Assembly (NCBI RefSeq): GCF_018141525.1 | Contig: NZ_CP064655.1 | Location: 3,256,501-3,320,500, forward strand | DNA length: 64,000 nucleotides | Source of the DNA: Miltoncostaea marina | GTDB lineage: Bacteria; Actinomycetota; Thermoleophilia; Miltoncostaeales; Miltoncostaeaceae | Direction of reading: 5' to 3' | Part shown: positions 10,803 to 33,671 of the stretch, in pieces | How the letters are laid out: the number at the start of each line of letters is the position of its first letter | Position numbering within the stretch: position 1 is the stretch's first letter | The notes under the pieces: generated by a model | The model's input: the letters and a program-made list of their open reading frames with translations, nothing else | What the model was told of the DNA's origin: nothing | Database searches by the model: none | Program-made: the position numbers and the translations under genes

Positions 10803-11459
10803 CTACGCTGGGGCGGTGAGCCAGCGTGCGGCGAGCGCGAGGCCCGCGGCGAGCGCGGCGCCGGTCGAGGAGCCCAGGCGGCGCAGATCGGCGAGCGCGG
10901 CCTCGCGGGCCCCCGGGGCGACCAGGCGGGTCACCGGCTCGGGCGCCGCCCCGCCGGCCGCGAGGCCGAGCAGCGTGGCCGACAGCGCGCCCGTGCGCCC
11001 CGCGGACGGCGGCAGCAGCGCCGCCACCAGGGCGTCCGCCCGCTCCGGCGCCAGCCCCGCCGCCGGGGCGAGCGCCCGCACGCCGACCGCGGCGCCGCAC
11101 AGCACGTCGTCGCCCTCGGGCGTCAGGCCGGGGCCGCGGCCCATCAGGCGATCCGCCGCGTCCGCGGGGCCGACGTCCGGAGGCGACGTGCGCGCGGCCA
11201 GCCAGGCGGCCAGCTCGCGCACCTGCGCCGGCCCGCCGGCGAGCGGGGGCACGACGGGGTCCCAGAGCGGCGGCGCCAGCGGGTCCCACGCCACCCGGGG
11301 CGCCGCGGGGAGCGGGCCCGCCACCGCGATGCCGTTCGGCATGCGGGGGACCCCCGGCGCGGTGAGCGTGACCACGAACCCCCGCAGGTCGAGGTGCACG
11401 GCGCCCCGGCCGGCGCCCAGCACGCGCAGCGCGCACGGGCCGCGCAGCCGGCGCGCCAC
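10803..11459 (-). CDS. allH: AllH-like protein (DUF2877), oxamate carbamoyltransferase subunit homologue
   Basis: About 218 residues. The family signatures are visible: G-R-G-P-G-L-T-P-E-G-D-D-V-L-C-G-A in the middle, T-G-A-L-S-A-T-L-L after it, and L-G-S-S-T-G-A-A-L-A-A-G-L near the C-terminus. E. coli YlbF/AllH of this family, with FdrA (AllF) and YlbE (AllG), forms the transcarbamylase that turns oxalurate plus phosphate into oxamate and carbamoyl phosphate. Homologues of both partners are in this window (15193-16651 and 33663-35048). The start is uncertain: GTG 11459 gives a family-like N-terminus but lacks a clear ribosome site, and 15 bp separate it from the divergent GTG at 11475. Confidence 0.8.
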   Translation of the reverse strand: MARRLRGPCALRVLGAGRGAVHLDLRGFVVTLTAPGVPRMPNGIAVAGPLPAAPRVAWDPLAPPLWDPVVPPLAGGPAQVRELAAWLAARTSPPDVGPADAADRLMGRGPGLTPEGDDVLCGAAVGVRALAPAAGLAPERADALVAALLPPSAGRTGALSATLLGLAAGGAAPEPVTRLVAPGAREAALADLRRLGSSTGAALAAGLALAARWLTAPA

Positions 11460-11474
11460 CTGGGTGGAGAGCGC

Positions 11475-11807
11475 GTGAACGGCGACCGGTGGCTGCGCCC
11501 GGAGGTCGGCGCCCGGGTGCTCCAGCTCGTCGAGGTCGGCCCCTTCGTGGTCCAGCACCGCGAGGACCTGGGGTTCGGCGGCTGCCGGCTCACCCGGCAC
11601 CGCGGCGCGACCACCACGGTCTTCGAGGTCGTGGCCTACGCCGAGCGCTCCGAGATCGGGCTCTCCTGCCACGTGGTGCACCTCCGCGACGAGCGGGACG
11701 GGCGCGAGTACGTGCTGGACACGGGGATCTGCGGGCCCGGCATGCCCGCGGACGCGTTCCACGTGCTGCCGCCCGGCGACGGGTCGCTCAGCTCCTCCAG
11801 CGCTTGA
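11475..11807 (+). CDS. Hypothetical protein, 110 aa
   Basis: No family recognised. GTG 11475 has GGAG five nt upstream. The protein is beta-rich with paired valine/arginine strands, two cysteines (in G-F-G-G-C-R-L and S-C-H-V-V-H) plus one more near the C-terminus (G-I-C-G-P-G-M), and ends in a Ser-rich tail. No export signal. It is the only plus-strand gene inside a minus-strand block and splits the AllH-like gene from the rest. Its last 20 bp overlap the convergent gene at 11788-12222. Confidence 0.5.
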   Translation: MNGDRWLRPEVGARVLQLVEVGPFVVQHREDLGFGGCRLTRHRGATTTVFEVVAYAERSEIGLSCHVVHLRDERDGREYVLDTGICGPGMPADAFHVLPPGDGSLSSSSA

Positions 11808-12222
11808 CGCCCGAGGTCATCGAGACCATGCGCCGCTTGACCGGCCACGGGATGCGCGCGTAGACCGGCGCGAAGACGGCGTCCCAGAACCAGCCCGCCC
11901 CGCCGTGGGGCTCCGGCCCGCGCGCGGCGCGGCTGAAGCGCCGCTGCGACGCCGTCATGAGCGCCCGCTCGCCGGCCGAGCGCATCAGCCGCGGCGGCTT
12001 GGGGCGCGGCGGCACGACGGCCGGCCGGTCGCCGGGCCGCCGGCCCGGCGCGCCGACCTTCGACAGGGCGTCGGCGACGGCGTTCTGGCCCGCCTTGCGC
12101 GCGGTCGAGCCGGGGGGCGCCGGCGGCGCGGCCGGCATGCCGCCCCGGCCGTGGTGCGCCACCCGGTCGTGCCCGAAGTACTCGCGCACCGACTCCGGGA
12201 TGCGCTCGTCGTGCGCGCTCAC
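11788..12222 (-). CDS. Hypothetical basic protein downstream of the flavoprotein
   Basis: 144 residues, start GTG in a GTGA overlap with the upstream oxidoreductase. An acidic/His-containing N-terminus (R-I-P-E-S-V-R-E-Y-F-G-H-D) leads into a long Pro/Ala/Arg-rich, probably disordered middle, then an aromatic-basic C-terminus with W-F-W-D-A-V-F-A-P-V-Y and P-W-P-V-K-R-R-M. This end could sit on a membrane surface. No function can be assigned; translational coupling suggests it partners the flavoprotein. Confidence 0.55.
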   Translation of the reverse strand: MSAHDERIPESVREYFGHDRVAHHGRGGMPAAPPAPPGSTARKAGQNAVADALSKVGAPGRRPGDRPAVVPPRPKPPRLMRSAGERALMTASQRRFSRAARGPEPHGGAGWFWDAVFAPVYARIPWPVKRRMVSMTSGVKRWRS

Positions 12223-13553
12223 AGCTGCGCCATCCCGTTCTGGGCCGCCACCGAGAGCGGCTCGTAGAGGGCGCCGATCGGCGGGGAGTAGACGTTCTCC
12301 ATCCACGCGAGGTCCTCGAGCGTGGCGCCGCGCTTCAGCGCGAAGGCGAGGAAGTCGGCCCGCTCCTTGATGCCCTCGCCGCCCACGAACTGGCCGCCGA
12401 TCAGCCGGCCGGTGCCCGGCTCGGCGAGCAGCTTGACCCGCACCTGCTGCACGCCGGGGAAGTAGCGCGCGCGGCTGATGCCGTTGGCCGAGCCCACGAC
12501 GTACGGGATGCCGAGCGAGGTGGCGAGGTTCTCGCCCAGGCTGGCACCGCCGATCTGCACCTGCCCGCCGACCATGCCCCAGGGCAGGTTGACCGGGTCG
12601 TAGCGCCGGTCGCCGCCGGCGGCGTTGGCGCCGGCCACGCGGCCCTGCTGCATCGCGTGCGAGCCGGTGAGGCCCTGCACCGCGATGCCGGTCAGGTTCT
12701 GCGGCACCTCGACGACGTCGCCGGCCGCGTAGACGTCCTCCATCGACGTGCGCATGCGCTCGTCGACGACCAGCGCGCCGGTGGAGCCGATCTTGAGGCC
12801 CATCGCGCGGGCGAGGGTCGTCTCGGGCTCCTTGTGGGTGGAGATGACGCAGATGTCGGCCTCGATCTGCCCCTGCGTGGTGTCGACCGCCCGCAGGCGG
12901 CCGTTCTCGCCCACGAAGCCGCGCAGGCCCACGCCGAAGTGCAGCTGGCAGCCCAGCTCCTCCAGGCTCGTCTGGACCGGCTCGGCGATGTCCTGGTCGG
13001 CGATCTGCGCCAGCAGCCAGGCGTTCTCGTCGACGAGGTGGGTCTCGATGCCGCGGTGCGCGAGCGCGGTCAGCATCTCCACGCCCAGCGGGCCGGCCTC
13101 GAGCACGACCGCCTTCTTGACGTCGTCGAGCGTCTCGTTGAGCTCGATGCCGCGCCGGATGTTCTTGACGAAGACGAGGCCCTCGAGGTCGTTGCCCGGC
13201 ACGTCCGGCAGCGTGTAGTTCCACCCGGTGCACACCACCAGCCGGTCCCACGGCACCACGTCGCCGTTGGCCGTCATCGTGCGGTTGGCGACGTCGACCT
13301 CGGTCACCGCCGTCTGGGTGCGCAGGTCGATGCCCGCCTCCGCGTAGTTCTCCGGCCCCGCCAGGAAGAGGCGCTCGAAGTCGGGGATCTCACGGCCCAG
13401 CACGTAGGGGATGCCGCACGGCGAGTACGCGACGTCCTCGAACTCGGTGCAGACCACGACGGTGGCGTCGGGGTTGGTGCGCTTGGCCATCGAGCCCGCG
13501 CTGATGCCCGCGGCGCCGCCGCCGATCACGCAGATGCGGTGCGGTTCACCCAT
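12219..13553 (-). CDS. FAD-dependent CoA-disulfide reductase/NADH oxidase-like oxidoreductase
   Basis: 444 residues of the pyridine-nucleotide disulfide oxidoreductase class II type. The FAD dinucleotide motif I-G-G-G-A-A-G is at residues 10-16. A single redox cysteine, C46, lies in Y-S-P-C-G-I-P-Y, matching the active-site Cys of CoA-disulfide reductases and NADH oxidases. A-G-D-V-V-E-V in the second FAD motif and the C-terminal dimerisation domain are present. The NAD-binding motif reads L-E-A-G-P-L-G-V-E, so its first Gly is replaced by Glu-Ala. GAGGA lies 7 nt before ATG. It sits downstream of OsmC, suggesting thiol or peroxide stress work. Confidence 0.85.
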   Translation of the reverse strand: MGEPHRICVIGGGAAGISAGSMAKRTNPDATVVVCTEFEDVAYSPCGIPYVLGREIPDFERLFLAGPENYAEAGIDLRTQTAVTEVDVANRTMTANGDVVPWDRLVVCTGWNYTLPDVPGNDLEGLVFVKNIRRGIELNETLDDVKKAVVLEAGPLGVEMLTALAHRGIETHLVDENAWLLAQIADQDIAEPVQTSLEELGCQLHFGVGLRGFVGENGRLRAVDTTQGQIEADICVISTHKEPETTLARAMGLKIGSTGALVVDERMRTSMEDVYAAGDVVEVPQNLTGIAVQGLTGSHAMQQGRVAGANAAGGDRRYDPVNLPWGMVGGQVQIGGASLGENLATSLGIPYVVGSANGISRARYFPGVQQVRVKLLAEPGTGRLIGGQFVGGEGIKERADFLAFALKRGATLEDLAWMENVYSPPIGALYEPLSVAAQNGMAQL

Positions 13554-13598: not shown

Positions 13599-14024
13599 CT
13601 AGCCCATCGGCGGGCCGTGGTGGTAGCGCAGCTCCGGCGGGTCGGTGATCGTGTTCGTGACCCAGCAGTAGCGCTTGGCGAGCTCCACGGCGGGCGCGAG
13701 CGTGGCCTGCGGGGTGGACGACTCGACCCAGAGGTCGTACGCGCCGTGGCGCGGCTCGCCCACCTGCCGGTGCGGCCGCACATGCACGCGCAGGTCGTCC
13801 AGGGGGATGCGCTTCTTGCGCGCGCCCCAGGCGACCGCGATGCAGAAGCACGAGGCCAGCGCGACCACCAGCATCTCGGTGGGCATGGGGCCCGTGTCAC
13901 CGCCGCCGAACTCCTCGGGCTCGTCGACGCGCACCGAGTGGCCCCGGCCGCTGACGTCGGTCGCCATGCCGCCGCGCCATTCGGCGGTCCAGACGGCGTA
14001 CTCGTGCGGCTCGTCGACCGGCAC
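13599..14024 (-). CDS. OsmC-family peroxidase-like protein
   Basis: 141 residues. OsmC/Ohr proteins reduce organic hydroperoxides with two cysteines. Both are present: one in V-V-A-L-A-S-C-F-C-I-A and one in A-K-R-Y-C-W-V-T-N-T, at the usual spacing. The first motif has an extra Cys two residues on. GTG 14024 starts 6 nt after the glycosyltransferase stop, so it is the next member of the minus-strand operon. A shorter ATG start (M-A-T-D-V-S-G) is possible but would lose the first strand. It probably protects against peroxides or reactive sulfur; the substrate is not determined. Confidence 0.85.
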   Translation of the reverse strand: MPVDEPHEYAVWTAEWRGGMATDVSGRGHSVRVDEPEEFGGGDTGPMPTEMLVVALASCFCIAVAWGARKKRIPLDDLRVHVRPHRQVGEPRHGAYDLWVESSTPQATLAPAVELAKRYCWVTNTITDPPELRYHHGPPMG

Positions 14025-14029: not shown

Positions 14030-15196
14030 TCAGCCCCCCGGCAGGCCCGCGTAGAGCCGCTCGTGCGCCTCGGCGGCCGCCGGCCAGCCGAAGGCCGCCG
14101 CGGTGCGTCGCCCCCCGGCCACCAGGCGCTCCCGCAGCCCGTCGTCGCGGACCGCCTCGGCCAGGGCGCGCGCCAGCGCGGCGACGTCGCCGGCGGGCAC
14201 CATGCGGCAGTCGCGCCCGTCCTCGAGGAACTCGCGCAGCACGGGCAGGTCGCTGGCCACCACCGGCACCCCCGCCGCCTGGGCCTCGAGCACGACCAGG
14301 CCGAAGCCCTCGCGCTCCGACGGGAACGCGAACACGTCGGCGGCCCGGAAGAGGGCGGGCATGTCGTCGTCGGGCACGGGGCCCAGCACCGCGACGTCGG
14401 CGTCGTGCGGCGGCGCCGGGCCGCGGTGCACCCGCAGCCCGAGGCGCGCGGCGTCGTCCTCCCAGGCGGCCCGGTAGTCGGCGTAGTCGAACAGCGTCTC
14501 GCCGCCGGCGATCGCGAGCAGCGCCCCGGGTCCGAGCTCGCCGCGCGCCGCCGCGAACGCCGCGAGCAGCGCCCGGCTGCCCTTGCGCGGCTCGATCCCG
14601 CCCACGGCCAGCACGGCCGGCCGGTCGCCCCAGCCCATCCGCCGGCCCGCCTGCGCCCGGTCGAGCGGGCACCCGGCGAAGCGCTCGCCGTCGACGCCGT
14701 TCGGGATCACCGTGGCCGCGACGCCGTGGTCGCGGCGCAGCACCTCGGCCCAGTGGTGGCTGACGCACACCCGGTGGTCGACGTCCTCGATCGAGGCGCG
14801 CTGGCAGTCCGCCAGCACCGGGCTCGCGAAGTCGTCGACGTGGTGGACGGTGCGCACGATCGACGGCACGCGCCCCTCGGCGCGCAGCGCCAGCAGCGAG
14901 CGCGCCGACAGGCAGTCCTCGGAGTGGTGGACGTCGGCCGGCCCCGCCGCGCGCAGGCCGTCGGCGAGCGTGGCCGCGTAGCGCAGGATGCGCGGCTCCA
15001 CGTCCTCGCCGGGGCGGCGGTCGACCGGGACCAGGCGCACCGGCACGCGGGGCTCGCGGAAGAACCCGGCCCCGTCGGGCGACAGCGCCCACAGCTCGAC
15101 GTCGTGGCCGCGGTCGCCGAGGGCCTCGGCCAGGTGCAGCGCGTGCACCACCCCGCCGCGCGGCTTGACCGAGTAGGTGACCAGACGGATCCTCAC
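14030..15196 (-). CDS. MSMEG_0565-family glycosyltransferase (GT4 type)
   Basis: 388 residues. The N-terminus M-R-I-R-L-V-T-Y-S-V-K-P-R-G-G-V-V-H and the H-S-E-D-C-L-S-A stretch are characteristic of the glycosyltransferase family that accompanies the nitrogen-starvation (Nit1C) gene cluster. The C-terminal GT4 lobe has P-S-E-R-E-G-F-G-L-V-V-L-E, the NDP-sugar motif with two glutamates, near residue 300. GTG 15196 overlaps the FdrA stop, so it is co-translated with fdrA. Its partners (Sll0783-like, radical SAM, GNAT, AIR-synthase-like) lie 12-18 kb away, so the usual cluster is split here. Acceptor and product are unknown. Confidence 0.88.
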   Translation of the reverse strand: MRIRLVTYSVKPRGGVVHALHLAEALGDRGHDVELWALSPDGAGFFREPRVPVRLVPVDRRPGEDVEPRILRYAATLADGLRAAGPADVHHSEDCLSARSLLALRAEGRVPSIVRTVHHVDDFASPVLADCQRASIEDVDHRVCVSHHWAEVLRRDHGVAATVIPNGVDGERFAGCPLDRAQAGRRMGWGDRPAVLAVGGIEPRKGSRALLAAFAAARGELGPGALLAIAGGETLFDYADYRAAWEDDAARLGLRVHRGPAPPHDADVAVLGPVPDDDMPALFRAADVFAFPSEREGFGLVVLEAQAAGVPVVASDLPVLREFLEDGRDCRMVPAGDVAALARALAEAVRDDGLRERLVAGGRRTAAAFGWPAAAEAHERLYAGLPGG

Positions 15197-16651
15197 CCGG
15201 CGAGCGCGGCGGCCAGCCTGGCGGCGGCGGCGTTCGTCGGTGCGAGCCGCACCCCGGCGTCATGCAGCGCGGCCTCCTGGCGGCTGCGCACCTGGGGGTC
15301 GTCCTCCGTGCCGAGCACGTACCCGACCACCGCGAGCTGCGGCCGCGCGTCGAGCGCCTCGCGGATCACCGGCACCAGCACGGAGGCCGGGTCGGGGTGG
15401 CTCGCGTACCCCAGCACCACGTCGATCAGCAGCACGCCCACGTCGGGGTCGGCCGCCTCCTCGGCGAGGCGCTCGGCACGGGCCGCCGGGTCGATCATCG
15501 GGTGCGGCCGGCCGCGGGTGAACTCCTCCTCGCCGAGGTCGAGGCAGGCGTGGCCGCGCGGCTCGCCCTCGAGGCGCCGGGCGCGGCCGGCGGGGGCGTT
15601 GGACGACACCGTCCCGAGCTCCTCGGCCAGGATCGCGGCGGCCTCGCTGCAGAGCGTACCGCCGGAGAACAGCCCGCGCACCGCGCCGCCGGTCACCCAG
15701 CCCGCCCGCGGCGCGGGGGGCGGCGCGCGGCCGGCCGGCCAGGCGGGCGGCCTCGAGCGCCGCCGCCTCGAGCGTCGGCGCCAGGTGCACGCCCTCGACG
15801 GGCTCCACGCCCCCGCCGACCATGCAGGCCACCGCCGGCGTGCCGCAGCCCGCCAGCGCGCGCAGCACGCGCTCGGCCACCTCGGGCGAGGGCGGCTTCG
15901 AGACGCAGAGGATCACCTCGGTCGCCTCGTCGGCCGCCAGGCGCGCGATCGCGTCGAGGGCCGTGATCGCCCCCACGTCGTCCTTCAGGTCGCGCCCGCC
16001 GGTGCCGTAGCAGGCGCTGACGCCCGCGCCGGCCCGGTCGACGAGCACGGTCACCTCCTGCGCGCCCGTGCCCGCGGCGGCCACGACGCCCACCGGCCCG
16101 CGGGCGACCACGTTGGCGAAGCCGAGCGCCACGCCGTCGACGATCGCGGTGCCGGCGCCGGGCCCCATCACCAGCAGGCCCAGCTCGTGGGCGCGCCGCT
16201 TGAGCGCGACCTCGTCGGCGAGCGGCACGTTGTCGGAGAAGAGCAGCACGTCCATCCCCGCCCCGAGCGCCTTGTGGGCCTCCAGCGCGGCGTACTCGCC
16301 CGGCACCGAGACCACGGCCACGTCGGCCTCCACCCGGGTCAGGCTGCGCGGCGCCCGCTCGGCCGCCGCGGCCCCGCCCGCCCCGCCGCCGGACGACCCG
16401 AGCGCCTCCTCGGCCGCCGCCACCGCGGCCTCCGCGCCCTCGCCGCGCGCCGCGATCACGAGGTCGTCGGGACCCGCGCCGTCGATCGCCGGATCGCTGA
16501 TGCCGAGCCCCGCGGCCTCCTCCCGGTTGGCCGGCGTGCCCATGAAGCAGACGGCGCGCTCGACGCCGTCGACCGACTCCGCCGCGCGCGCGGCGGCCAT
16601 CATCTTGGCGCTGTCCGCCCAGCGGCCGGCGTGGACCCTCGCGACGATCAC
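15193..16651 (-). CDS. fdrA: FdrA/AllF-like protein, split by a one-base frameshift
   Basis: FdrA (AllF) resembles succinyl-CoA synthetases and is a subunit of E. coli oxamate carbamoyltransferase. The N-terminal half reads from GTG 16651 (V-A-R-V-H-A-G-R-W; M-G-P-G-A-G-T-A-I; Y-G-T-G-G-R-D-L-K-D-D) down to about 15720 in one frame. The C-terminal half (V-R-G-L-F-S-G-G-T-L-C-S-E-A, then V-L-L-I-D-V-V-L-G-Y) is in another frame and ends at 15193. A run of six C (15715-15720, minus strand) lies at the junction; one base fewer would join the halves into a full-length protein. The second half could also start at GTG 15696, and the first frame stays open to 15260. Frameshift, sequencing error and true split gene are all possible. 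It is coupled to both neighbours. Confidence 0.78.
15715..15720 (-). other. Probable frameshift site in fdrA (C6 run)
   Basis: Upstream codons follow the FdrA N-terminal half in one frame and downstream codons the C-terminal half one base on. The homopolymer CCCCCC sits in the low-conservation linker between the halves and is the simplest place for the shift. Confidence 0.55.
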
Positions 16652-18909
16652 GACGCCGACACCACGCGGCCTTCGGGCCCGGCGAGCAGCGGCTCGGCCT
16701 GGGCGCCGTGCGCCTCGTCGTCGGTCTCGCGCGCGCGCAGCAGCACGGCGTGGGCACCCTCGAGCATGACCGCCCCCGGTCGCAGGTGGATGAACGGCGA
16801 GGCCTGGGCCATCGCGTAGGCGCCGGTCTGGCCGATCCAGACGAGGTCGCCCACCTGCAGCGGCGGCAGCGGCACCTCGCGCGCCACGGCGTCGTGCTGC
16901 AGGCACAGCGGCCCGTAGAGGTCGGTCGGCCGCTCCGCGCCCTCGCGGGGCGCCACGGCGTGCACCGGCGAGCGCTTCCACTGGACGCACGGCACCTGGG
17001 TGATGCCGACGTCGACCACCGCCCGCCCGCGGCCGCGGCGGGCCACGACCCGGGTCAGCAGCCAGCCGGCGTCGCGGATCAGCGCGCGGCCCGGCTCCAG
17101 GATGAGCGGCGGGTGGCCGGGGCCCAGCGCGGCGCGCGCGGCGTCGAGGTGGCCCGCCAGGCCGGCCGCGGCCGGCCAGCCGCCGCCCAGGTTGAGCCAC
17201 TCCACGCCCCCCAGCCGGTCGGCGACGTCGCGCAGCATGGCGGCGGCGGCGGTGAAGCGCGACACGGGCACCGGGTACTCGACGGTCACCCCGTGGATGG
17301 GCGGGCCGCTCGGCGGCAGCTCGCCGAGCTGGTACGCGCCCAGGTGCACGTGCAGCCCCGTCAGCGGCAGGCCGGCGCGCGCCAGCACGGAGGCGGCCGC
17401 CGGGGCCATGCGCGGCGGCACGCCGAAGCGGTCGCGGCCCACGCGGTCGGGCGGCACCAGGCGCAGCCCGACGCGCGCCCCCGGCGCGGCGTGCCGCGCG
17501 AGGCGGGCGATCTCCCGCACCTGCTCCGCGCCGTCGGCGACGACCGTGGCGCCCTCGGCCAGCGCCCGGCGCAGCTCGTCGGCGGTCTTAAGCGGGCCGT
17601 TGAACACGATCCGCGAGCCGGGCACGCCCGCGCGCCGGGCCGTGCGGTACTCGAAGCCCGAGGCCACCTCGGCCCAGCAGCCGGCCCGGTGCAGGCGCGC
17701 CACGAGGCCCATCAGCGGGTTGGACTTGAGCGAGTAGGCGACGGTCACGTCCGGGCCGGCCGCCGCCCGGAAGGCGAGCGCCTCGGCCTCGATGCGCGGC
17801 CCCTCGAACACGTAGAGCGGCGTGCCGAAGCGCTCCGCCAGCTCCGCCGCGCGGGCCGGCGGCCGCGGCCCGGCCGCCCGCACGACGTTCGAGCGGCGCG
17901 GCGCCGGGGCGGCCCGCCGGGGGGCCGCCGCGCGCCGGGACACGACCCGCGGCCACACCTCGGCGCCCACCCTGCCGACCTCCTCCAGGTGCGGGTAGCC
18001 GGAGGCGATCACCAGGTCGACGCCCGCCTCGCGGTACTGCCGCAGCATCGCGGCCACCTGCGCGTACGAGCCCACGAGGGCGGTGCCGGCGCCGCCGCGC
18101 ACCGCGCGGATGCCGGCCCACAGGCCGGGCGCGACCCACCCCTCGCCGTCGGCCGGGATCGCGTTCATGCGCGCCTGGCCCACGCTGTCGAAGCCGGCGT
18201 ACTCGGCCTCGCGGTCGCCCGCCACCTGCGCGCGCGAGAGCAGCTCCGCCGCGGCCTGGCGGGCCTCCCGCTCGTCCGGGCGGGCGATGATGTGGATGCG
18301 CAGGCCGAACCGCATCGGCCGGTCGGCGCGGGCGCGGACGGCCGCCACCCGCTCGGCGATGCGCTCGGGCGGCTCGCCCCACATGAGGTAGGCCTCGGCC
18401 TGCTCCAGCGCCAGATCCACGGCCGCCTCGCTGGCGCCGCCGAGGTAGAACGGCCCGCCGAAGCGGCGGCGCACCGTGCGCGCCAGCCCGGCCAGACGGG
18501 CGTAGCGCTCGTCGTGCGGCAGCGGCGGGGTGCCGTAACGCGCGTCCGGCCCGCCGCCCGCGACGAGGTTGATCGCCACCCGCCCGGGCGCGGCGCGCTC
18601 GAGCGTCTCTGCCTGGTGCGCGGCGAGCTCGGCGGCGATCCCGGCCGGGTTGACCGCGGCGATGATCCGGATCGACCGGGTCAGCGCCGCGAGCGCGCTC
18701 GCCGTCGTCCAGCTCTCGGCGAACGGCGCGTCGGGGGCGAACGAGTCGTTGACCGTGCCCGTCGGCACGAGGATCTCGGTCGCGCCGGCGCGCTCGGCGG
18801 CGCGGGCCACCCGGGCCAGGTACGCCGGCTCAGGGGCGCGCTCGGGCCTGCGGGTGCCCAGCCACCGCCCGTCGCCCTCCGAGGGGCAGTACCAGCCGAG
18901 CGCGATCAC
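16648..18909 (-). CDS. Fusion of LLM-class flavin monooxygenase and PLP-dependent decarboxylase
   Basis: 753 residues without an internal stop. Residues 1-325 are a luciferase-like (LLM) flavin monooxygenase (E-I-L-V-P-T-G-T, V-N-P-A-G-I-A, I-N-L-V-A-G-G, A-Y-L-M-W-G-E, a T-A-L-V-G-S end). After a linker rich in Ala, Pro and Arg (326-348), residues 350-725 are a fold-III amino-acid decarboxylase of the DAP/ornithine group: PLP lysine K395 in Y-S-L-K-S-N, H-L-G (522-524), G-G-G (575-577), E-P-G-R (605-608), G-P-L-C with C669, and G-A-Y (697-699). Both active sites look intact. GTG 18909 is leaderless (TAGCAT, then 6 nt). The stop overlaps fdrA. The substrate is unknown; LLM enzymes such as RutA open nitrogen rings, a possible parallel. 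Confidence 0.85.
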   Translation of the reverse strand: MIALGWYCPSEGDGRWLGTRRPERAPEPAYLARVARAAERAGATEILVPTGTVNDSFAPDAPFAESWTTASALAALTRSIRIIAAVNPAGIAAELAAHQAETLERAAPGRVAINLVAGGGPDARYGTPPLPHDERYARLAGLARTVRRRFGGPFYLGGASEAAVDLALEQAEAYLMWGEPPERIAERVAAVRARADRPMRFGLRIHIIARPDEREARQAAAELLSRAQVAGDREAEYAGFDSVGQARMNAIPADGEGWVAPGLWAGIRAVRGGAGTALVGSYAQVAAMLRQYREAGVDLVIASGYPHLEEVGRVGAEVWPRVVSRRAAAPRRAAPAPRRSNVVRAAGPRPPARAAELAERFGTPLYVFEGPRIEAEALAFRAAAGPDVTVAYSLKSNPLMGLVARLHRAGCWAEVASGFEYRTARRAGVPGSRIVFNGPLKTADELRRALAEGATVVADGAEQVREIARLARHAAPGARVGLRLVPPDRVGRDRFGVPPRMAPAAASVLARAGLPLTGLHVHLGAYQLGELPPSGPPIHGVTVEYPVPVSRFTAAAAMLRDVADRLGGVEWLNLGGGWPAAAGLAGHLDAARAALGPGHPPLILEPGRALIRDAGWLLTRVVARRGRGRAVVDVGITQVPCVQWKRSPVHAVAPREGAERPTDLYGPLCLQHDAVAREVPLPPLQVGDLVWIGQTGAYAMAQASPFIHLRPGAVMLEGAHAVLLRARETDDEAHGAQAEPLLAGPEGRVVSAS

Positions 18910-18915: not shown

Positions 18916-18921
18916 ATGCTA
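18916..18921 (-). promoter_or_regulatory. Leaderless -10 element of the LLM-decarboxylase/fdrA operon
   Basis: TAGCAT on the minus strand is followed by six nt and the GTG at 18909, matching the leaderless arrangement repeated across the window. It supports the chosen start and marks the operon head. Confidence 0.6.
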
Positions 18922-18990: not shown

Positions 18991-19260
18991 GTGGCGGGCT
19001 GGAGGGTGGTCATCGAGACGCGCGCGCCGGGCGACGCCGGGGCGTCAGCCGAGCGGTACGAGGTGACGCCGCCGCCCGAGCCGGGGACGGAGCGCGCCGT
19101 GCTGCGCCAGCTCGTCACCGGGATCCACCCCGGCGCCGTGGAGCTCGGCCACGACGGGGGCACGAGCCGCTTCGCCGACGGCGACCGCGAGATCGCGGCC
19201 CGGTTCGAGGGCGGCGGGCCCCCCGACGCCCCTGGGCAGGGGACGCTCTTCGACGCGTAG
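18991..19260 (+). CDS. Small hypothetical protein with a C-terminal QGTLF motif
   Basis: 89 residues, family not recognised. GTG 18991 follows a G-rich stretch that could serve as ribosome site. The sequence is short beta segments (W-R-V-V-I-E-T-R, Y-E-V-T-P-P) and a charged C-terminus ending G-Q-G-T-L-F-D-A. Q-x-x-L-F at an exposed C-terminus resembles the sliding-clamp (DnaN) binding motif, which is suggestive only. It is divergent from the monooxygenase operon; a TAGGCT box at 18960 is a possible -10. Confidence 0.5.
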   Translation: MAGWRVVIETRAPGDAGASAERYEVTPPPEPGTERAVLRQLVTGIHPGAVELGHDGGTSRFADGDREIAARFEGGGPPDAPGQGTLFDA

Positions 19261-22245: not shown

Positions 22246-22273
22246 CGCCCGGCGCGCCACCGGGCCCCCCTTT

Positions 22274-24605: not shown

Positions 24606-25970
24606 CTACGCCGTCCCGCCGCGCTCCACGATGGCGGCGATGCGCCGGCCGCGCTCGGTGCCGTACGACAGGAACAGGTCCCGGACCGCCTCGCGGTAGG
24701 CGCCCGAGGCGGCCTCCTCGATCGCGCCGGGGAGGGCGTCGGCGAAGCGCTCGACCGCCGACGGGTCGGGGTCGCTCAGGTTGACCCGGATCGTGGTGGT
24801 GGCGCCGACCTCGCCCAGCCCGTCGCCCGGGTACACGGCCACCTTGCGCCGGCAGAGCGCCACGGTCAGCTCCTGCGCGCTCGCGCCGGCGCCCGACACG
24901 TCGAGCACGCACGAGAAGCCGTACTCGGGGTCGATGACCGGCGTCGCGACCCGCCGCACGGCCGCGAGGTTGCGCCGGATCACCTCCTCGCCGGCCGCGA
25001 GGTGGCCGCGGTCCGCGAGCGCGGCCGCGGCGCCCACCTGGGCGACGCGGTTCGTGTTGAGCCGCACGGCGGCGATCTTCACCTGCAGGCAGGCGCGCAC
25101 GAGGGCGGGGTCGCCGCCGAGGGCGCCGATGCGCGCGCCCGCCATGCCGTAGCCGTGGGCGAGCCCGCTGGACACGAGCAGGGTGGCGCCGGGGTGCTCC
25201 GCCTGGACCGCCGCCACGTGGTGGTGCCGCGCCGCGGGGTCGACCCGGTGGGCCGAGTGGGTCGTGTCGGCCAGCAGCACGATGCCGCGCTCGGCCGACA
25301 GGCGCAGCAGCGCGGCGAGCTCGTCGCGCCGCTGGACGGTCCCGAACGGGTTGACCGGGTCGCAGACCACGACCATCTTCGTGCGCGGCGTGACCGCGGC
25401 GGCGACCTCGTCGGGGTCGAGCCGCCAGCCGTTGCCGGGGCCGAGGCGCACCCAGACCGGCACCCCGCCGGCCAGCCGCAGGGCGGGGACGAAGTGGAAG
25501 TAGCCGGGGTCGGTGACGATGACCTCGTCGCCCGGGTCGACGCAGGCCAGCGCCGCGTAGCCCACGCCGGCCTGCGCGCCCTCGGTGCCGATGACGTCGA
25601 AGCCGTCGTCGCGCGCGCGGCCGAGCAGCTCGGTCGCCATGAGGTCGCGCAGGCCGGCGTCGAGGTCGGGCGAGTAGGGCCCCACGTGCTCGGCGTCGAC
25701 CGCCGCCCGCATCGCCTCGAGGGCGCGCGGCGACGGGCCGATGTGGTTGGCCATCCAGCCCAGGTCGGCCCACTCGCGCCGGTCGAGGTGGATCGCCCCG
25801 TCGCGGTAGACGTCGGCCGGGTCCCAGCCGAGGATCCGGTAGGCGTCGCGGTAGGTCATGTAGTTGCCGAAGCCCTGCGGGTCCTCGAGCAGGGCCCGGG
25901 CCCGCGCGGAGGCGAGCGGCACGTCGGCCGCCGCGGGCGGCCGCCAGGTGAGCACGGAGCGCCGGCTCAC
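24606..25970 (-). CDS. Aminotransferase class I/II-fold protein with His in place of the PLP lysine
   Basis: 454 residues. The fold-I landmarks are clear: G-T-E-G-A-Q-A-G near 130, D-P-G-Y-F-H near 155, the N-P-x-G element as D-P-V-N-P-F-G (204-210) and A-D-T-T-H near 235. The Schiff-base motif S-x-S-K-x-Y-G-[LM]-A-G-x-R reads A-H-G-Y-G-M-A-G-A-R: His272 (codon CAC) replaces the lysine, while R280 is kept. Lysines elsewhere are not at the active site. Sugar dehydratases ColD and E1 use such a Lys-to-His change with PMP, but they are DegT-type. GTG 25970 overlaps the carbamate kinase stop. Function unknown; ordinary transamination is unlikely. Confidence 0.85.
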   Translation of the reverse strand: MSRRSVLTWRPPAAADVPLASARARALLEDPQGFGNYMTYRDAYRILGWDPADVYRDGAIHLDRREWADLGWMANHIGPSPRALEAMRAAVDAEHVGPYSPDLDAGLRDLMATELLGRARDDGFDVIGTEGAQAGVGYAALACVDPGDEVIVTDPGYFHFVPALRLAGGVPVWVRLGPGNGWRLDPDEVAAAVTPRTKMVVVCDPVNPFGTVQRRDELAALLRLSAERGIVLLADTTHSAHRVDPAARHHHVAAVQAEHPGATLLVSSGLAHGYGMAGARIGALGGDPALVRACLQVKIAAVRLNTNRVAQVGAAAALADRGHLAAGEEVIRRNLAAVRRVATPVIDPEYGFSCVLDVSGAGASAQELTVALCRRKVAVYPGDGLGEVGATTTIRVNLSDPDPSAVERFADALPGAIEEAASGAYREAVRDLFLSYGTERGRRIAAIVERGGTA

Positions 25971-26905
25971 AGGGCCACGATCCGGGTGCCCGCGCGCCCG
26001 GCCAGCGCGTCCTCGACGCGCTCGAGCGAGGTCACCACGGCCGCCCCGCCGCTCGCCTCGGCGAACCGGGCGGCCGCGTCGATCTTCGGCCCCATGCTGC
26101 CGGGCGGGAACTGCCCGTCGGCCAGGTGGGCGCGCGCCTCGGCCACGGTCATCGAGGCCACCGGCCGCTCGTCGGGCGTGCCGAAGTCGAGCAGCACGTG
26201 GTCGACGCCGGTCACCAGCAGCAGCGTGGTGGCGCCCACGAGGCCGCCCACGAGCGCGGCCGCGAGGTCCTTGTCGATGACCGCATCGACCCCCGCCAGG
26301 CCCTCGCCGTCGCGCACCACCGGCACGCCGCCGCCGCCGCAGGCCACCACGACCTCGCCGGCCTCAAGCAGGCGGGCGATCTCGGGCGCCTCCACGATCT
26401 CCACGGGGTCGGGCGACGGCACGACGCGCCGCCAGCCGCGCCCCGAGTCCTCGGCCACCGCCCAGCCGCGGGCGTCGGCCAGGCGCCGGGCGCGGCCCTC
26501 GGGGAAGAAGGGCCCGATCGGCTTCGTGGGCCGCCCGAACGCCGCGTCGGACCGGTCGACCACGACCTGGGTCATCACCGCGGCCACCGAGCGGGGGGCG
26601 CCCTCGGCGGCGAGCGCGTCGCCGACCGCCTGGGCGAGCAGGTAGCCGAGCTGCCCCTGGGTCATGGCGCCGAGGGCGAACAGCGGCTGCGGCGGCACCT
26701 CGCGCGCCACGGCCTCCTGCGCCATGGCGAGGGCGCCCACCTGCGGGCCGTTGCCGTGCACGATGAGCAGGCGCGCGCCGCCGGCGACGATGCGGGCCGC
26801 GTGGACCGCGACCTCGCGCGCCCGGGCCATCTGGCCGTCGAAGTCGCCGAGCCCCGCGGGCGCGAGCGCGTTGCCGCCGATCGCCAGAACCACCGTCTCG
26901 TCCAG
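25967..26905 (-). CDS. arcC: Carbamate kinase
   Basis: About 312 residues. It interconverts carbamoyl phosphate + ADP and ATP + NH3 + CO2. Family motifs: A-I-G-G-N-A-L near the start, V-H-G-N-G-P-Q-V-G, T-Q-V-V-V-D, K-P-I-G-P-F, A-C-G-G-G-G-V-P-V, D-A-V-I-D-K-D, and G-S-M-G-P-K-I-D-A-A. GGAGGGAG lies five nt before a CTG at 26905, which is therefore taken as start; GTG 26893 is the conventional alternative, 17 nt from that ribosome site. With the AllF, AllG and AllH homologues in the window it probably consumes their carbamoyl phosphate, like the dedicated carbamate kinase (YbcF/AllK) of E. coli allantoin use. Confidence 0.92.
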   Translation of the reverse strand: MDETVVLAIGGNALAPAGLGDFDGQMARAREVAVHAARIVAGGARLLIVHGNGPQVGALAMAQEAVAREVPPQPLFALGAMTQGQLGYLLAQAVGDALAAEGAPRSVAAVMTQVVVDRSDAAFGRPTKPIGPFFPEGRARRLADARGWAVAEDSGRGWRRVVPSPDPVEIVEAPEIARLLEAGEVVVACGGGGVPVVRDGEGLAGVDAVIDKDLAAALVGGLVGATTLLLVTGVDHVLLDFGTPDERPVASMTVAEARAHLADGQFPPGSMGPKIDAAARFAEASGGAAVVTSLERVEDALAGRAGTRIVAL

Positions 26906-27064: not shown

Positions 27065-27550
27065 GTGGCGAAGATCGAGGGGATGAAGCCCGAGGCCGGC
27101 CAGGAGCTCTACGACGTCTCCGAGAAGGTGTTTCCGGACATCAAGGCCGAGCCGGGCGAGGAGGCGTGGATCTTCATGCACACCGTGCCCTACGAGGGCT
27201 CGGTCGGCCTGGTCAACCTGCTGACGGCGACGCGCCTGGGCCGCAAGGGCTTCCAGGTCAACCTGGTGCTCTACGGGCCCGGCGTGCTGATGGCGTCCGG
27301 CACCCGTGGATACCCGGCCGTCGGCCAGGAGGCCTTCCCGGGCCACATGGCGATCAACAACCAGCTCAAGACGCTCCTCTCCGAGGGCGCGAACATCTAC
27401 GCCTGCCGGTTCGCCATGGGCGCGCTCTACGGGTTCCGCGAGGACGACCTCATCGAGGGCGTCAAGGCGTTCAACCCGCTGGACGTGCTCGACTCGGCCC
27501 TGACCGCCTGGCGCAACAAGGCCTTCCAGCTCAACACCTGGACGGTCTGA
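27065..27550 (+). CDS. MSMEG_0572/Sll0783-family nitrogen-starvation response protein
   Basis: 161 residues. Diagnostic stretches are F-M-H-T-V-P-Y-E-G-S-V-G, N-L-L-T-A-T-R-L-G-R-K-G-F, L-Y-G-P-G-V and A-C-R-F-A-M-G-A-L-Y-G. The family founder, Synechocystis sll0783, is strongly induced by nitrogen starvation and needed for polyhydroxybutyrate build-up there; the biochemical role is unknown. GTG 27065 has GGGAGGAG five nt upstream. It heads a tight five-gene operon (gaps of 28 and 14 nt, then overlaps) and follows a CRP-like site. Confidence 0.9.
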   Translation: MAKIEGMKPEAGQELYDVSEKVFPDIKAEPGEEAWIFMHTVPYEGSVGLVNLLTATRLGRKGFQVNLVLYGPGVLMASGTRGYPAVGQEAFPGHMAINNQLKTLLSEGANIYACRFAMGALYGFREDDLIEGVKAFNPLDVLDSALTAWRNKAFQLNTWTV

Positions 27551-28219: not shown

Positions 28220-29083
28220 GTGCCTCTTCCCGAAGGAATCAAGCGCAACGTCATCGACGGCCACAGCCACATCGGCGAGATCGAGGCCTGGCCGTTCTAC
28301 GGTATCGACTACCCCGTGAAGCCGATCGTCTACGACTTCCCGCGGACGAAGGACTTCATCAAGTTCATGGACAAGTACGGCATCGAGCGCAGCCTCGCGA
28401 TGTCGAACTACGGCATCCCCAAGCCGGAGCAGCCCTTCTCGCTGAACCCGGTCGTGATGGAGGCCGCCACGTCCAGCGACCGCATCCGCGGCCTGCTGTG
28501 GGTGTCGTTCCTGCCGCGCGACCGCGAGCACACCCTCGAGGCGCTCAAGCACTGCGGCGAGGCCGGGATCATCGGGCTCAAGACGACGTTCCTGCTGGGC
28601 GGCAACCCCAACCCGGCCGAGTGGGACGAGGAGACCAAGCAGCTCGCGGACATGTGCTTCGACGCCTGCGAGAAGCACGACTACGTCTTCCACTTCCACA
28701 CCTCGCCCGGCGGCGCGAGCGACATCAACAACTTCATCCCGATGGTCGAGGAGTACGGGAAGCGCTGCAAGATCCACCTCGTGCACTTCGGCGGGGGCGT
28801 CAGCGGGCACATCAAGCTGGTGCCGAAGTTCCTGCAGTGGGTGCGCGACGGCTACAAGGTGTACACCGACACCTCGTGGGCGGTCGGCTTCGGCGCCCGC
28901 TGGCTGCTGGTGGAGATCGAGAAGCAGGGCGTGGGCGGCGACCGGGTGATCTTCGGCTCCGACGAGCCCTGGTCCGACTTCATGAGCGAGTACTGGAAGG
29001 TGGAGGGCGCCCCGGTCTCGGAGGAGCTCAAGCGCATGGTCTTCCGGGACAACTTCGAGAAGCTCCACGGGGCGCACTGGTGA
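28220..29083 (+). CDS. Amidohydrolase 2-family metal-dependent hydrolase
   Basis: 287 residues, TIM-barrel metal enzyme of the amidohydrolase-2 (ACMSD-like) group. Metal ligands: H-S-H in D-G-H-S-H-I-G (residues 13-17), H in F-H-F-H-T-S near 155, H in H-L-V-H-F-G-G near 185, and the Asp in F-G-S-D-E-P-W near 255. GTG 28220 follows GGGAG. The stop overlaps the radical SAM gene. In related clusters of cyanobacteria and other bacteria the gene between the Sll0783 and radical SAM genes is a nitrilase; here the slot holds this hydrolase or decarboxylase. No nitrilase Glu-Lys-Cys triad is present. Substrate unknown. Confidence 0.85.
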   Translation: MPLPEGIKRNVIDGHSHIGEIEAWPFYGIDYPVKPIVYDFPRTKDFIKFMDKYGIERSLAMSNYGIPKPEQPFSLNPVVMEAATSSDRIRGLLWVSFLPRDREHTLEALKHCGEAGIIGLKTTFLLGGNPNPAEWDEETKQLADMCFDACEKHDYVFHFHTSPGGASDINNFIPMVEEYGKRCKIHLVHFGGGVSGHIKLVPKFLQWVRDGYKVYTDTSWAVGFGARWLLVEIEKQGVGGDRVIFGSDEPWSDFMSEYWKVEGAPVSEELKRMVFRDNFEKLHGAHW

Positions 29084-30228
29084 GCACCACCGCCGGCCGG
29101 CCCGACCTGCGCACGCTGGCGGTCGAGCTCCAGTCGCTGGGCGTCCGCACGACCCACGCCGACGAGGGCCCCGGCGCCACGCGCGCCGGGGGCGCCGGCC
29201 CCTCGGACGCGGGCTTCATGTGGATGGACGGCACGCCGCTCACGGTGCCCGTGCACGGCGACTACGTGGCCTCCTCGCCCTACGAGCTGGTCATGACCGG
29301 CTCCGGTCGCGCGGGCACCCTCATGCGCGACGGCGTGGAGATCGGACCGGTGCGCCTGCACCCGCGACCGAAGATCTACGACCTCCAGACGGCCGACGGG
29401 ATCCCGTACTGGAAGATCGCGCTCATGCACCTGGACAGCCTCGCGTCCACGGTCATGCAGCGCTGCGTGTACTGGGGCACCCACGAGCAGTGCCACTTCT
29501 GCGCCATCGGCACCTCGCTCGCCAACGGCCGCACGATCCCCACCAAGACGCCCGCGCTGCTGGCCGAGGTCGCCGAGGCGGCGGCGCGCCTCGACGGCGC
29601 GAAGGACGTGACGCTCACCACCGGGTCGCCGAACCGCGACGACCGCGGCGCCTCGTACATGGCCCGCTGCGCCGAGGCCATCCGCGAGGCGAGCGGGCTG
29701 CCCGTGCAGGTGCAGCTCGAGCCGCCGTCCGACTTCGGCTGGTTCGCCCGCCTCAAGGACAGCGGCGTCGAGGCGCTCGGCCTGCACCTGGAGGTGTGGG
29801 ACGACGAGGTGCTGGCGCGCGTCGCCCCCGGCAAGCACGCCCAGGGGCGCGACCGCTACCTCGCGGCGTGGGAGGCGGCGGTCGGGGTGTTCGGCCCCGG
29901 CCAGGTGTCGACGTACTTCATCCTCGGCCTCGGCGAGACGCCGGAGTCGGTGATGGAGGGCTGCCGGGCCGCCATCGACCGCGGCGTCTACCCGTTCGTG
30001 GTGCCCCTGCGGCCCGCGCCGGGGAGCATCGTGGCCGACGGCGTGCCGCCCTCGGCCGAGTACGTGCGCGAGGTCTACGAGCAGGTGGCGCCGCTGCTGG
30101 CGGAGGCCGGGATGATGAGCCAGGACGCGCGCGCCGGCTGCGTGCGCTGCCAGGCCTGCTCCGCCCTCAGCACCTTCGAGCGGGCCTTCGGCGGCGGCCG
30201 GGACGGCGTGCCCGCCCAGGGGGCGTAG
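29080..30228 (+). CDS. MSMEG_0568/Sll0785-family radical SAM protein
   Basis: 382 residues. The [4Fe-4S]-SAM cysteines have the spaced pattern of this family, C129, C138 and C141 (C-V-Y-W-G-T-H-E-Q-C-H-F-C), rather than Cx3Cx2C. Radical SAM core features follow: T-L-T-T-G-S-P-N-R near 185, Q-L-E-P-P near 208, and a second small cysteine set near the C-terminus (C354, C357, C360 in C-V-R-C-Q-A-C), possibly another cluster. GTG 29080 overlaps the amidohydrolase stop. It is a core member of the nitrogen-starvation cluster; its reaction is not known to me. Confidence 0.9.
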   Translation: MSTTAGRPDLRTLAVELQSLGVRTTHADEGPGATRAGGAGPSDAGFMWMDGTPLTVPVHGDYVASSPYELVMTGSGRAGTLMRDGVEIGPVRLHPRPKIYDLQTADGIPYWKIALMHLDSLASTVMQRCVYWGTHEQCHFCAIGTSLANGRTIPTKTPALLAEVAEAAARLDGAKDVTLTTGSPNRDDRGASYMARCAEAIREASGLPVQVQLEPPSDFGWFARLKDSGVEALGLHLEVWDDEVLARVAPGKHAQGRDRYLAAWEAAVGVFGPGQVSTYFILGLGETPESVMEGCRAAIDRGVYPFVVPLRPAPGSIVADGVPPSAEYVREVYEQVAPLLAEAGMMSQDARAGCVRCQACSALSTFERAFGGGRDGVPAQGA

Positions 30229-30728
30229 TGCGCGGGGGCGGCCTGGACGTGCGGGTCGCCCGCGACGGCGAGGACCTCGCGGCCCACCACCGGGTGCGGC
30301 GCGCGGTCTTCGTCGAGGAGCAGGCCGTGTTCGAGGGCGACGACCGCGACGCGTGGGACGACCACGCCGTCAAGGTGGTCGCCGAGCTCGACGGCGAGGT
30401 GGTGGGCGCCGTGCGCCTCTACCCCCTCGACGAGGCCGGCCTGTGGAAGGGCGACCGCCTGGCAGTGCTGCCGGCCGCGCGGCCGCGCCGGGTGGGCGCA
30501 CCGCTCGTGCGCTTCGCCGTGCGCACCGCCGGCGAGCTCGGCGGCTCGCGGATGATCGCGCTCATCCAGCGCCGCAACGTCCCGTTCTTCCAGCACCTGG
30601 GCTGGACGACGATCGGCGGCGCGGCCGACTTCCGCGGCCGCAGCCACCAGGAGATGACGATCGCCCTGGCCGGGGCGGCACCGGGCTTCGCACCCGCGGG
30701 CTACCGCTGGGCGCTCGGCGGCGCGTAG
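30228..30728 (+). CDS. MSMEG_0567/Sll0786-family GNAT N-acetyltransferase
   Basis: 166 residues. R-R-A-V-F-V-E-E-Q-A-V-F-E-G-D-D-R-D near residue 27 and V-G-A-V-R-L-Y-P-L near 65 are typical of this GNAT subfamily, and F-F-Q-H-L-G-W near 125 marks the usual C-terminal beta-bulge. The pantetheine loop (R-P-R-R-V-G-A-P-L) is near 90. GTG shares its first base with the TAG stop of the radical SAM gene. It ends the five-gene operon. Substrate is unknown; the family always travels with the radical SAM gene in this cluster. Confidence 0.88.
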   Translation: MRGGGLDVRVARDGEDLAAHHRVRRAVFVEEQAVFEGDDRDAWDDHAVKVVAELDGEVVGAVRLYPLDEAGLWKGDRLAVLPAARPRRVGAPLVRFAVRTAGELGGSRMIALIQRRNVPFFQHLGWTTIGGAADFRGRSHQEMTIALAGAAPGFAPAGYRWALGGA

Positions 30729-30759: not shown

Positions 30760-32739
30760 GTGCAGCACCCCAGAACCGGCCCCGTCCCGCGCGCCCGCGC
30801 CGTGGCGGCCGCGGCCGTCGCCGCCGCCGCGCTCGCCGCGCCGGCCGGGGGCGCGGCGGCGCCCGCCGTGCTGCCGCCGGCCGACCTCTCCGCGCCCGGA
30901 GCGACCGTGGGCGACGCCGTCGCCGCGCTCGACGGCGCGGGCGCGGCCACCGTGGTGTGGGAGCGCCGGGCCGGCGACGCGACCTCGGTCGTGGCCGCGA
31001 CGCGCGCGCCGGGCGGCGCGTGGGGCGCGCCCGCTCCGCTCTCGGCCGCCGGCCGCCGCGCCGGCTCGCCCGCCGTGGCGGTCGCGCCCGACGGGGGCGC
31101 CGTGGCGGTGTGGCGCCGCGACGACGGCGGCGGCCGGGCGACGATCGAGGCGGCGGTCCGGCCGGCGGGCGGGGCCTTCGGCGCCCCCGTCGCCCTGTCC
31201 GCGCCCGACGCCCTCGGCGCGCTACGGCCGCGCGTGGCCATCGCGCCCTCGGGCGCGGCGGCGGCGGCCTGGCTGCGCTTCGACGGCCAGCACACCCTCG
31301 TGGAGGTCGCGACCCGTCCCCCGGGCGGCGCCTTCGGCGCGCCCCGCACGGTGTCGGCGCCCGGGGCGGACGCCCTCGCGCCCGCCGTGGCGGTCGACGG
31401 CGCGGGGCGCGCGACGGTGGCCTGGAACCGCGCGGACGGCGCGGGCTCCGTCGTGCAGGTCGCGCGCGGCGACGGGGCGGCGGGCTTCACCGCGCCGGCC
31501 GACGCCTCGCGCCCGGGCGCGACGGCCTTCGGCGCCGCGGTGGGCGTCGCGCCGTCGGGCGCCGGCGTGCTCCTGTGGAGCGAGGTCGCCGCCGACGGGG
31601 CGACCGTGGTGGTGACGACGCCGCTCGGCGCCGACGGCGGTCCGGGGGCGCCGGCGACGATCTCGCCCGAGGGCGACGCGTCGACGGCGCAGGTCGCGGT
31701 CGACGGCGCGGGTCGCGCGATCGCCACCTGGCGGCTGCAGGCCGGGGGGCGCAGCGTCGTGCAGGCGGCCGAGCGCCCGGCCGGCGGCGCGTGGGGGGCG
31801 CCCGTGGACCTGTCGGCGCCCGGCGTGCCCGCCGCCGACCCGCGTCCCGCCCTGGACGCGGCCGGGCGCGCCGCGATCACCTGGCGCCGCGCCGACGGCG
31901 CCGACCCGCGCGTGCAGCTGGCCGTCCGCGAGCCCGGCGCGACGTGGGGCGCGCCGTCCGACGTCTCCGCCCGCGGGGCGGTCGTCGCGGGGCCGGTCGT
32001 GGCGCTCGACGGCGCCGGCAACGGCCTGGTCGTGTGGCGGCGCGCGCTGGGCGCGGACGACGTGGTCCAGGCCGCCGGCCTCGACGGCGCGCCCCCGGTC
32101 GTGGAGGAGCTGGCCGTGCCGGCCGCGGGCGCCGCCGGGGCGGCCCTCACCCTGCGCGTGCGGGCGCGGGACGTGTGGTCGCCGCTCGACGAGCCGGTCT
32201 GGGACGTGCCGTCGGCCACGCTCACCGGCGCGTCGGTGGTGCACGCGTTCGCCGCCGGCCGCCACCGGGTGCGCGTGCGCGTGGCCGACGCGCTCGGCAA
32301 CGCGACGACCGCCGAGGGCGCGGTGACCGTCGTCGCCGCGACGCGGCCGCAGACGGCGGCGAGCGCCCCGGTGCGCCGCCAGACCGCCGTGGCGCCCCGC
32401 GCCAGGCGGTCTCCCCTGCTGCGGGCGAGCCTGCGGCTGGTGCGTCGGGGGCAGCGGGTCGAGCTGCGGGTGCGCGGGCGCGCCGGCAGCGCCCTCGCCG
32501 GGCGGCGGCTGATCGTGGAGCGCCGCGCCGGCCGCGCGAAGGCCCCGCGGCCGCTGTGCCGCGTGCTCGTGCGCCGCTCCGGGGCGTTCGACGGCCGCTG
32601 CCGGGTGGAGCGCCTGGTGCGCGGCGGGCAGGTGCTGCGGGTGCGGGTGCGCGCCGGCTCGACGCGCGCCACGCGGGCCCGGGCGCTGCCCTGGGTCAGC
32701 CGCCGGGCGGCCCCGGCCGGTCGGCCCGCAGACCGGTGA
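30760..32739 (+). CDS. Secreted repeat protein, beta-propeller-like
   Basis: 659 residues. A signal peptide rich in Ala is followed by eight repeats of about 50 residues, each built as A-V-D-G-A-G-R-A-x-x-x-W-R-R-x-D-G, x-V-Q-x-A-x-R-P-x-G-G-A-W/F-G-A-P, L-S-A-P-G, consistent with a seven- or eight-bladed propeller. Then come an Ig-like module (residues 445-520) and a basic beta-rich C-terminal domain with two Cys. No catalytic motif. It interrupts the nitrogen-starvation gene set between the GNAT and AIR-synthase-like genes, and its last 44 bp overlap the convergent AIR gene. Function unknown; extracellular binding is likely. Confidence 0.7.
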   Translation: MQHPRTGPVPRARAVAAAAVAAAALAAPAGGAAAPAVLPPADLSAPGATVGDAVAALDGAGAATVVWERRAGDATSVVAATRAPGGAWGAPAPLSAAGRRAGSPAVAVAPDGGAVAVWRRDDGGGRATIEAAVRPAGGAFGAPVALSAPDALGALRPRVAIAPSGAAAAAWLRFDGQHTLVEVATRPPGGAFGAPRTVSAPGADALAPAVAVDGAGRATVAWNRADGAGSVVQVARGDGAAGFTAPADASRPGATAFGAAVGVAPSGAGVLLWSEVAADGATVVVTTPLGADGGPGAPATISPEGDASTAQVAVDGAGRAIATWRLQAGGRSVVQAAERPAGGAWGAPVDLSAPGVPAADPRPALDAAGRAAITWRRADGADPRVQLAVREPGATWGAPSDVSARGAVVAGPVVALDGAGNGLVVWRRALGADDVVQAAGLDGAPPVVEELAVPAAGAAGAALTLRVRARDVWSPLDEPVWDVPSATLTGASVVHAFAAGRHRVRVRVADALGNATTAEGAVTVVAATRPQTAASAPVRRQTAVAPRARRSPLLRASLRLVRRGQRVELRVRGRAGSALAGRRLIVERRAGRAKAPRPLCRVLVRRSGAFDGRCRVERLVRGGQVLRVRVRAGSTRATRARALPWVSRRAAPAGRPADR

Positions 32740-33658: not shown

Positions 33659-33671
33659 CCCAGTGAGCCTA
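33650..33671. promoter_or_regulatory. Interlocked divergent leaderless promoters (AIR-like / allG)
   Basis: On the plus strand TAGGTT (33650-33655) lies 7 nt before GTG 33663. On the minus strand TAGGCT (33666-33671) lies 7 nt before ATG 33658. Each -10 box thus lies within the first codons of the opposite gene, with predicted start sites about five bases apart. Confidence 0.65.

Follow-up and report, generated by a model that had tools for sequence, protein, structure and literature searches.

A luciferase-like monooxygenase and a PLP decarboxylase in one reading frame within a Nit1C–allFGH locus of Miltoncostaea marina

In a 64,000-nucleotide stretch of the Miltoncostaea marina genome (hereafter the window; the genome, G000, is a single contig), one long open reading frame had been annotated as a luciferase-like (LLM) flavin monooxygenase joined to a PLP-dependent decarboxylase. 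The locus raises two questions: whether such a frame represents a genuine gene fusion, and what a protein with these two domains might do. The features discussed here are collected in Table 1.

A monooxygenase and a decarboxylase in one frame

The frame is encoded on the minus strand, a detail absent from the initial annotation, and runs from a GTG at 18909 to a TGA at 16650–16648. Both of the proposed domains are recovered in frame by Pfam, with matches to Bac_luciferase (PF00296) at aa 5–298 (E 2e-33) and to Orn_Arg_deC_N at aa 373–525 (E 1e-17), in addition to Orn_DAP_Arg_deC (E 1e-10). Since the protein is 60–85% identical to its relatives over both domains and dN/dS is low for each (~0.15), a chance reading frame is excluded. 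An AlphaFold2 model built with 12 sequences (mean pLDDT 73.5) has two barrel cores that are mostly confident, a poorly resolved C-terminal part and a disordered linker between the domains.

SsuD/MsuD (TIGR03565; PDB 1m41, 7jv3) provide the best sequence and fold match for the LLM domain, MsuD and SsuD being the top Foldseek matches for this part of the protein. Residues W177, R204, H206, R271 and Y305 align with SsuD active-site positions, which besides Cys54 we take to be W196, R226, H228, R297 and Y331, and are invariant in relatives; the SsuD/MsuD motifs RxH, WGEPP, RGGAGTALVG and GYPHLEE are also retained. Unlike SsuD/MsuD, however, the domain lacks Cys54, the loop being replaced by a conserved insert (NDSFAPDAPFxESW; TVNDSFAPDAPFA in the window), is some 20 residues shorter in the stretch before LGGAS (between aa 148 and 152) and is fused to a decarboxylase. 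Its TIGR03565 (SsuD) score of 246.9 bits lies below the curated cut-off of 518.2. On these alignments the domain is predicted to be a reduced-flavin monooxygenase of the SsuD/MsuD type whose substrate pocket is altered. Flavin reductase genes are found elsewhere in the genome, with none in the LLM–PLP operon.

The C-terminal domain has all the hallmarks of a fold-III PLP decarboxylase that had been listed for it (the PLP lysine K395, HLG at 522–524, GGG, EPGR and the catalytic Cys C669) and these are conserved in relatives. Foldseek matches for this part comprise D-ornithine/D-lysine decarboxylase and DAP decarboxylase, and in this broad sense the initial assignment to a DAP/ornithine-type fold stands. 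It is not a DAP decarboxylase, however: although it shares the fold-III architecture of LysA, it scores 151–153 bits against TIGR01048 (cut-off 297.9) and carries GPLCLQHD, invariant in relatives, where DAP decarboxylases have GPxCESxD. That it might serve as the cell's LysA was rejected on this score and because a separate, true LysA (459 bits) is encoded at C1:2170116. The GPLCLQHD...FIHLRP signature matches instead that of N-citrylornithine decarboxylase FslC (NF041039; PDB 7kh2), with which the domain shares C-[LM]-Q-H-D, P-x4-[WY]-[KR] and a FIHL+P C-terminus, its C-terminal half following that enzyme. The NF041039 score is nevertheless far under the cut-off (104 versus 500 bits) and the genomic context is different. 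We therefore describe it as a predicted fold-III PLP decarboxylase resembling N-citrylornithine decarboxylase.

Upstream of the frame, the leaderless promoter proposed earlier is plausible: TAGCAT is followed after 6 nt by the GTG start, and equivalents (TAGGAT-N6-GTG) are present in G001 and G013, but a scan of the upstream region for a consensus sigma-70 promoter gave no match. Downstream, the proposed overlap with fdrA is confirmed, fdrA having a possible start (GTG ATC GTC at 16651) that gives a 4-nt overlap with the end (TGA) of the fused gene.

Table 1. Features of the fused gene and of the surrounding locus in the window
Feature	Position	Strand	Remarks
Fused LLM–PLP gene	16648..18909	-	753 codons, GTG start
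LLM domain (SsuD/MsuD-like FMN monooxygenase)	17941..18909	-	aa 1-323; Pfam PF00296; PDB SsuD/MsuD by sequence and fold
Family-specific insert	18718..18756	-	aa 52-64, at SsuD Cys54 loop position; alignment; conserved in relatives
Ala/Pro/Arg linker core	17869..17934	-	aa 326-347; predicted disordered (AlphaFold2 pLDDT <50); stop-free in all frames
In-frame GTG (V343)	17881..17883	-	near start position of relatives' separate decarboxylase gene; possible residual internal start
Fold-III PLP decarboxylase domain	16648..17850	-	aa 354-753; K395, H522, GGG 575-577, EPGR 605-608, C669; Pfam, alignments
Putative -10 element TAGCAT	18916..18921	-	leaderless type; 6 nt before GTG start; equivalents in G001, G013
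fdrA/allF	15193..16651	-	4-nt overlap with fused gene; frame broken near 15715-15720 at C6 run
MSMEG_0565-family glycosyltransferase	14030..15196	-	
OsmC-like protein	13599..14024	-	
FAD/NAD(P) disulfide-oxidoreductase family protein	12219..13529	-	
AllH (oxamate carbamoyltransferase subunit)	10803..11558	-	
Fold-I PLP aminotransferase-like protein	24606..25955	-	weakly GntC/VioD-like; beside LLM in relatives
Carbamate kinase	25967..26893	-	
MSMEG_0572/Sll0783 family protein	27065..27550	+	Nit1C type
Amidohydro_2 amidohydrolase	28220..29083	+	
MSMEG_0568 family radical SAM protein	29080..30228	+	Nit1C type
MSMEG_0567 GNAT	30228..30728	+	Nit1C type
sll0787-like AIR-synthase-related protein	32696..33631	-	Nit1C type
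AllG (oxamate carbamoyltransferase subunit)	33663..35048	+	

Fused and separate forms among relatives

The Ala/Pro/Arg linker that had been noted between the domains extends over approximately aa 324–352. A congener, G002, has the same fused frame, on a contig that breaks off within the LLM domain. The homologous linkers, SRRAAAPRRAAPAPRRSNVVRAAGPRPP in the window genome and GGTPAAAIAPRPAPRTSNVTAMEPRPP in G002, differ in length by a codon and contain no stop in any of the three frames, so a single base error cannot hide a coupled stop/start arrangement in either. Purifying selection acts on both domains: between these two species dN/dS comes to 0.15 over the LLM stretch and 0.16 over the PLP domain, and to 0.48 in the linker. 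When the window genome is compared with G001 the values are 0.37 for the LLM domain versus 0.20 for the PLP domain, the former being the less constrained.

In six other Miltoncostaeaceae genomes (G001, G005, G008, G011, G013 and G020) the two genes are separate and overlap by 4 nt, the TGA of the LLM gene lying inside an ATGA or GTGA that also holds the decarboxylase start, a pattern that suggests translational coupling. Homologues are thus of both kinds, and the proposition that all close relatives encode two separate proteins, on which the fusion might have been dismissed as a local mutation or error, does not hold. A third fused case, G014, is uncertain: it comes from a MAG contig of 3x coverage, one of the other frames of its linker contains a TGA, and in a tree of the PLP domain it groups with the unfused G020 and G011, so that it represents a second fusion or else an artefact. 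A scan of contigs gave members of the family only, and a sample of 396 genomes from the phylum contained no additional LLM–PLP fusion. By its distribution the fusion is young and local, within part of the genus. SsuD-like proteins from elsewhere (G378, G358 and G340) share no neighbours with the LLM–PLP locus.

Could the single frame be an artefact of sequencing or assembly, in which an indel in the linker has joined two separate genes? The linker does contain a C6 run, six relatives are unfused, and another C6 run, some 2.2 kb downstream of the junction, marks the break in the fdrA frame, with further frame breaks near the locus in G002, indicating that local sequence accuracy is imperfect; for G014, with its low coverage and its TGA in another linker frame, an error of this kind may indeed be the answer. 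In the window genome and G002, however, with all three linker frames open, no single indel would restore a coupled stop and start, and the second of these is an independent sequence with the same frame. Given the shared frame, the stop-free linkers and the purifying selection on both domains, error is probably not the explanation; we consider it very improbable, and the fusion very probably genuine. A genuine fusion could still be functionally neutral, loss of a stop having joined two enzymes of the same operon whose domains continue to act independently, perhaps with some free decarboxylase made from the GTG at 17883. The unfused state of most relatives, the fast evolution of the linker and the in-frame start codons left near the old start (GTG in the window genome, ATG at the equivalent place in the G002 linker) all fit such a scenario, but the ATGA-type overlap has gone, there is no obvious ribosome binding site, and the fused frame has been retained in two species with linkers one codon apart. 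Neutrality is on this evidence possible, if somewhat unlikely.

The initial annotation knew of no described enzyme with this pair of domains, and none combining LLM and Orn/DAP-decarboxylase domains was found in the open-licence literature. The pairing is apparently new, and an ordinary gene fusion produced it: both domains come from known superfamilies, and coupled neighbours commonly fuse.

A composite Nit1C–allFGH locus

The fused gene lies within a large divergent locus of nitrogen metabolism (10803–35048) common to its relatives. On one side are the MSMEG_0572-type, hypothetical, amidohydrolase, radical SAM and GNAT genes, together with those for the AIR-synthase-like protein and AllG; on the other are the genes for carbamate kinase, the aminotransferase, LLM, PLP, FdrA, glycosyltransferase, OsmC, the FAD oxidoreductase, a hypothetical protein and AllH. 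The Nit1C-type profiles TIGR04044, TIGR04043 and TIGR04045 score over their cut-offs and TIGR04049 below it. All three AllFGH subunit genes are present. The fdrA gene is split over two frames at CCCCCC in the window, reflecting either a sequencing error or a real frameshift, and is intact in G001, G008, G013, G014 and G020.

The locus has parts in common with two known systems, the Nit1C gene cluster (PMC1199592), which functions in cyanide assimilation in Pseudomonas (PMC11049912), and AllFGH, the oxamic transcarbamylase of allantoin degradation in E. coli (PMC11326118). With the former it shares the MSMEG_0572, radical SAM, GNAT, AIR-synthase-like and glycosyltransferase genes; unlike it, the window locus has no subfamily-1 nitrilase, no CN_hydrolase gene being found in or near the window, and includes the amidohydrolase, allFGH, carbamate kinase and LLM–PLP genes. 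With the latter it shares FdrA/AllF, AllG, AllH and carbamate kinase, here embedded among Nit1C-type genes. A search of the open-licence literature for Nit1C together with carbamate kinase gave no match, and this composite locus, conserved in the family, is apparently undescribed.

The order aminotransferase–LLM–PLP–FdrA–glycosyltransferase is kept in the six unfused genomes, within contig limits, and several relatives have the aminotransferase gene next to the LLM gene, the order ArcC–aminotransferase–LLM being uninterrupted in G008, G011, G014 and G020. This is unlike the window, where four plus-strand genes (g18–g21, 19006–24576; a small ORF, two ATPase-like genes and an MMPL transporter) split the aminotransferase from the LLM gene. 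Because these genes intervene, the fused gene is the head of its operon in the window, as had been proposed. The aminotransferase-like protein itself is weakly similar to VioD and GntC, both enzymes of cyclic arginine biosynthesis.

Elsewhere in the phylum an allFGH–Nit1C core is found without LLM, PLP or aminotransferase genes (G175, G188, G233, G301, G321 and G498), from which it follows that these three are accessory; classical Nit1C loci without allFGH also occur. In some of the phylum loci the gene calls are noisy, and only those with tblastn support were used. One classical Nit1C locus (G217; L058, 16712–19319) has two LLM genes directly downstream of the glycosyltransferase gene, the sole LLM case among 15 loci. 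In a variant of the locus (L071, L048 and L049) seen in two genomes of the same family (G018 and G009) and one of another family of the class Thermoleophilia (G113), the aminotransferase is accompanied by a divergent decarboxylase and there is no LLM gene. Its slot is filled by a Methyltransf_20 gene and a protein with no Pfam match, which on our own reading of the sequence is probably ferritin-like and may replace the oxygenase. Such an occupancy is as expected if the slot represents an oxygenase step.

A possible role in nitrogen salvage

What might the fused protein do? The best reading, and a plausible one, is that the two domains act sequentially on one amino-acid-derived metabolite. Our overall explanation, held tentatively, is that of a genuine and recently formed bifunctional protein working in a nitrogen-salvage route. 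Comparison shows that part of the genus has lost the ATGA or GTGA shared by two coupled genes, and some 20–28 codons of Ala/Pro/Arg-rich linker now join the LLM and PLP domains, a tether that would hold both catalysts together. The former would carry out FMNH2-dependent oxygenation and the latter decarboxylation of the same compound, with the neighbouring fold-I aminotransferase-like protein providing a third step, either transamination or elimination. By analogy with E. coli AllFGH, the products may enter a route whose last step converts a ureido compound by phosphorolysis into carbamoyl phosphate, from which carbamate kinase would make ATP. Replacement in the LLM slot of the variant loci, the conserved gene order, the coupling seen in relatives, the fused frame of G002 and the completeness, conservation and purifying selection of both domains were all counted in favour of this explanation. 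Counted against it were the accessory status of the LLM, PLP and aminotransferase genes in the wider locus, the imperfect local sequence accuracy and the weaker constraint on the LLM domain in the comparison with G001. The most specific form of the proposal, that coupled oxidation–decarboxylation by a new bifunctional enzyme feeds a composite Nit1C–AllFGH pathway in which nitrogen and ATP are recovered from a ureido intermediate, is speculative and, taken whole, unlikely.

Other pathways have to be weighed against nitrogen salvage. The resemblance of the LLM domain to SsuD/MsuD, with five active-site residues in place, and the nearby OsmC and CoA-disulfide-reductase-like genes might indicate organosulfonate catabolism, in which decarboxylation of a sulfonated amino acid (cysteate, for example) by the PLP domain would be followed by desulfonation of the product by the LLM domain, with release of sulfite. 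Against this, the Cys54 loop has given way to an insert and the aa 148–152 segment is shortened, the operon was found to carry neither a sulfonate transporter gene nor one for a flavin reductase, and the surrounding genes are nitrogen genes; the idea is improbable. The decarboxylase signature held in common with FslC raises, by analogy with the N-citrylornithine decarboxylase of rhizoferrin synthesis, the prospect of a siderophore or other secondary metabolite, yet no siderophore synthetase stood out among the annotated neighbours, the conserved ones being allFGH and arcC, and a biosynthetic role of this type is very improbable.

Whilst the biochemistry of Nit1C is unsettled, the oxamate transcarbamylase activity of AllFGH has recently been solved, and since the window belongs to a single-contig genome of what is probably a cultured genus, the pathway is directly testable. 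The fusion of two genes is direct evidence for a shared pathway, and in Miltoncostaea it points to an oxygenase–decarboxylase–aminotransferase module in a locus that joins Nit1C-type genes to AllFGH.
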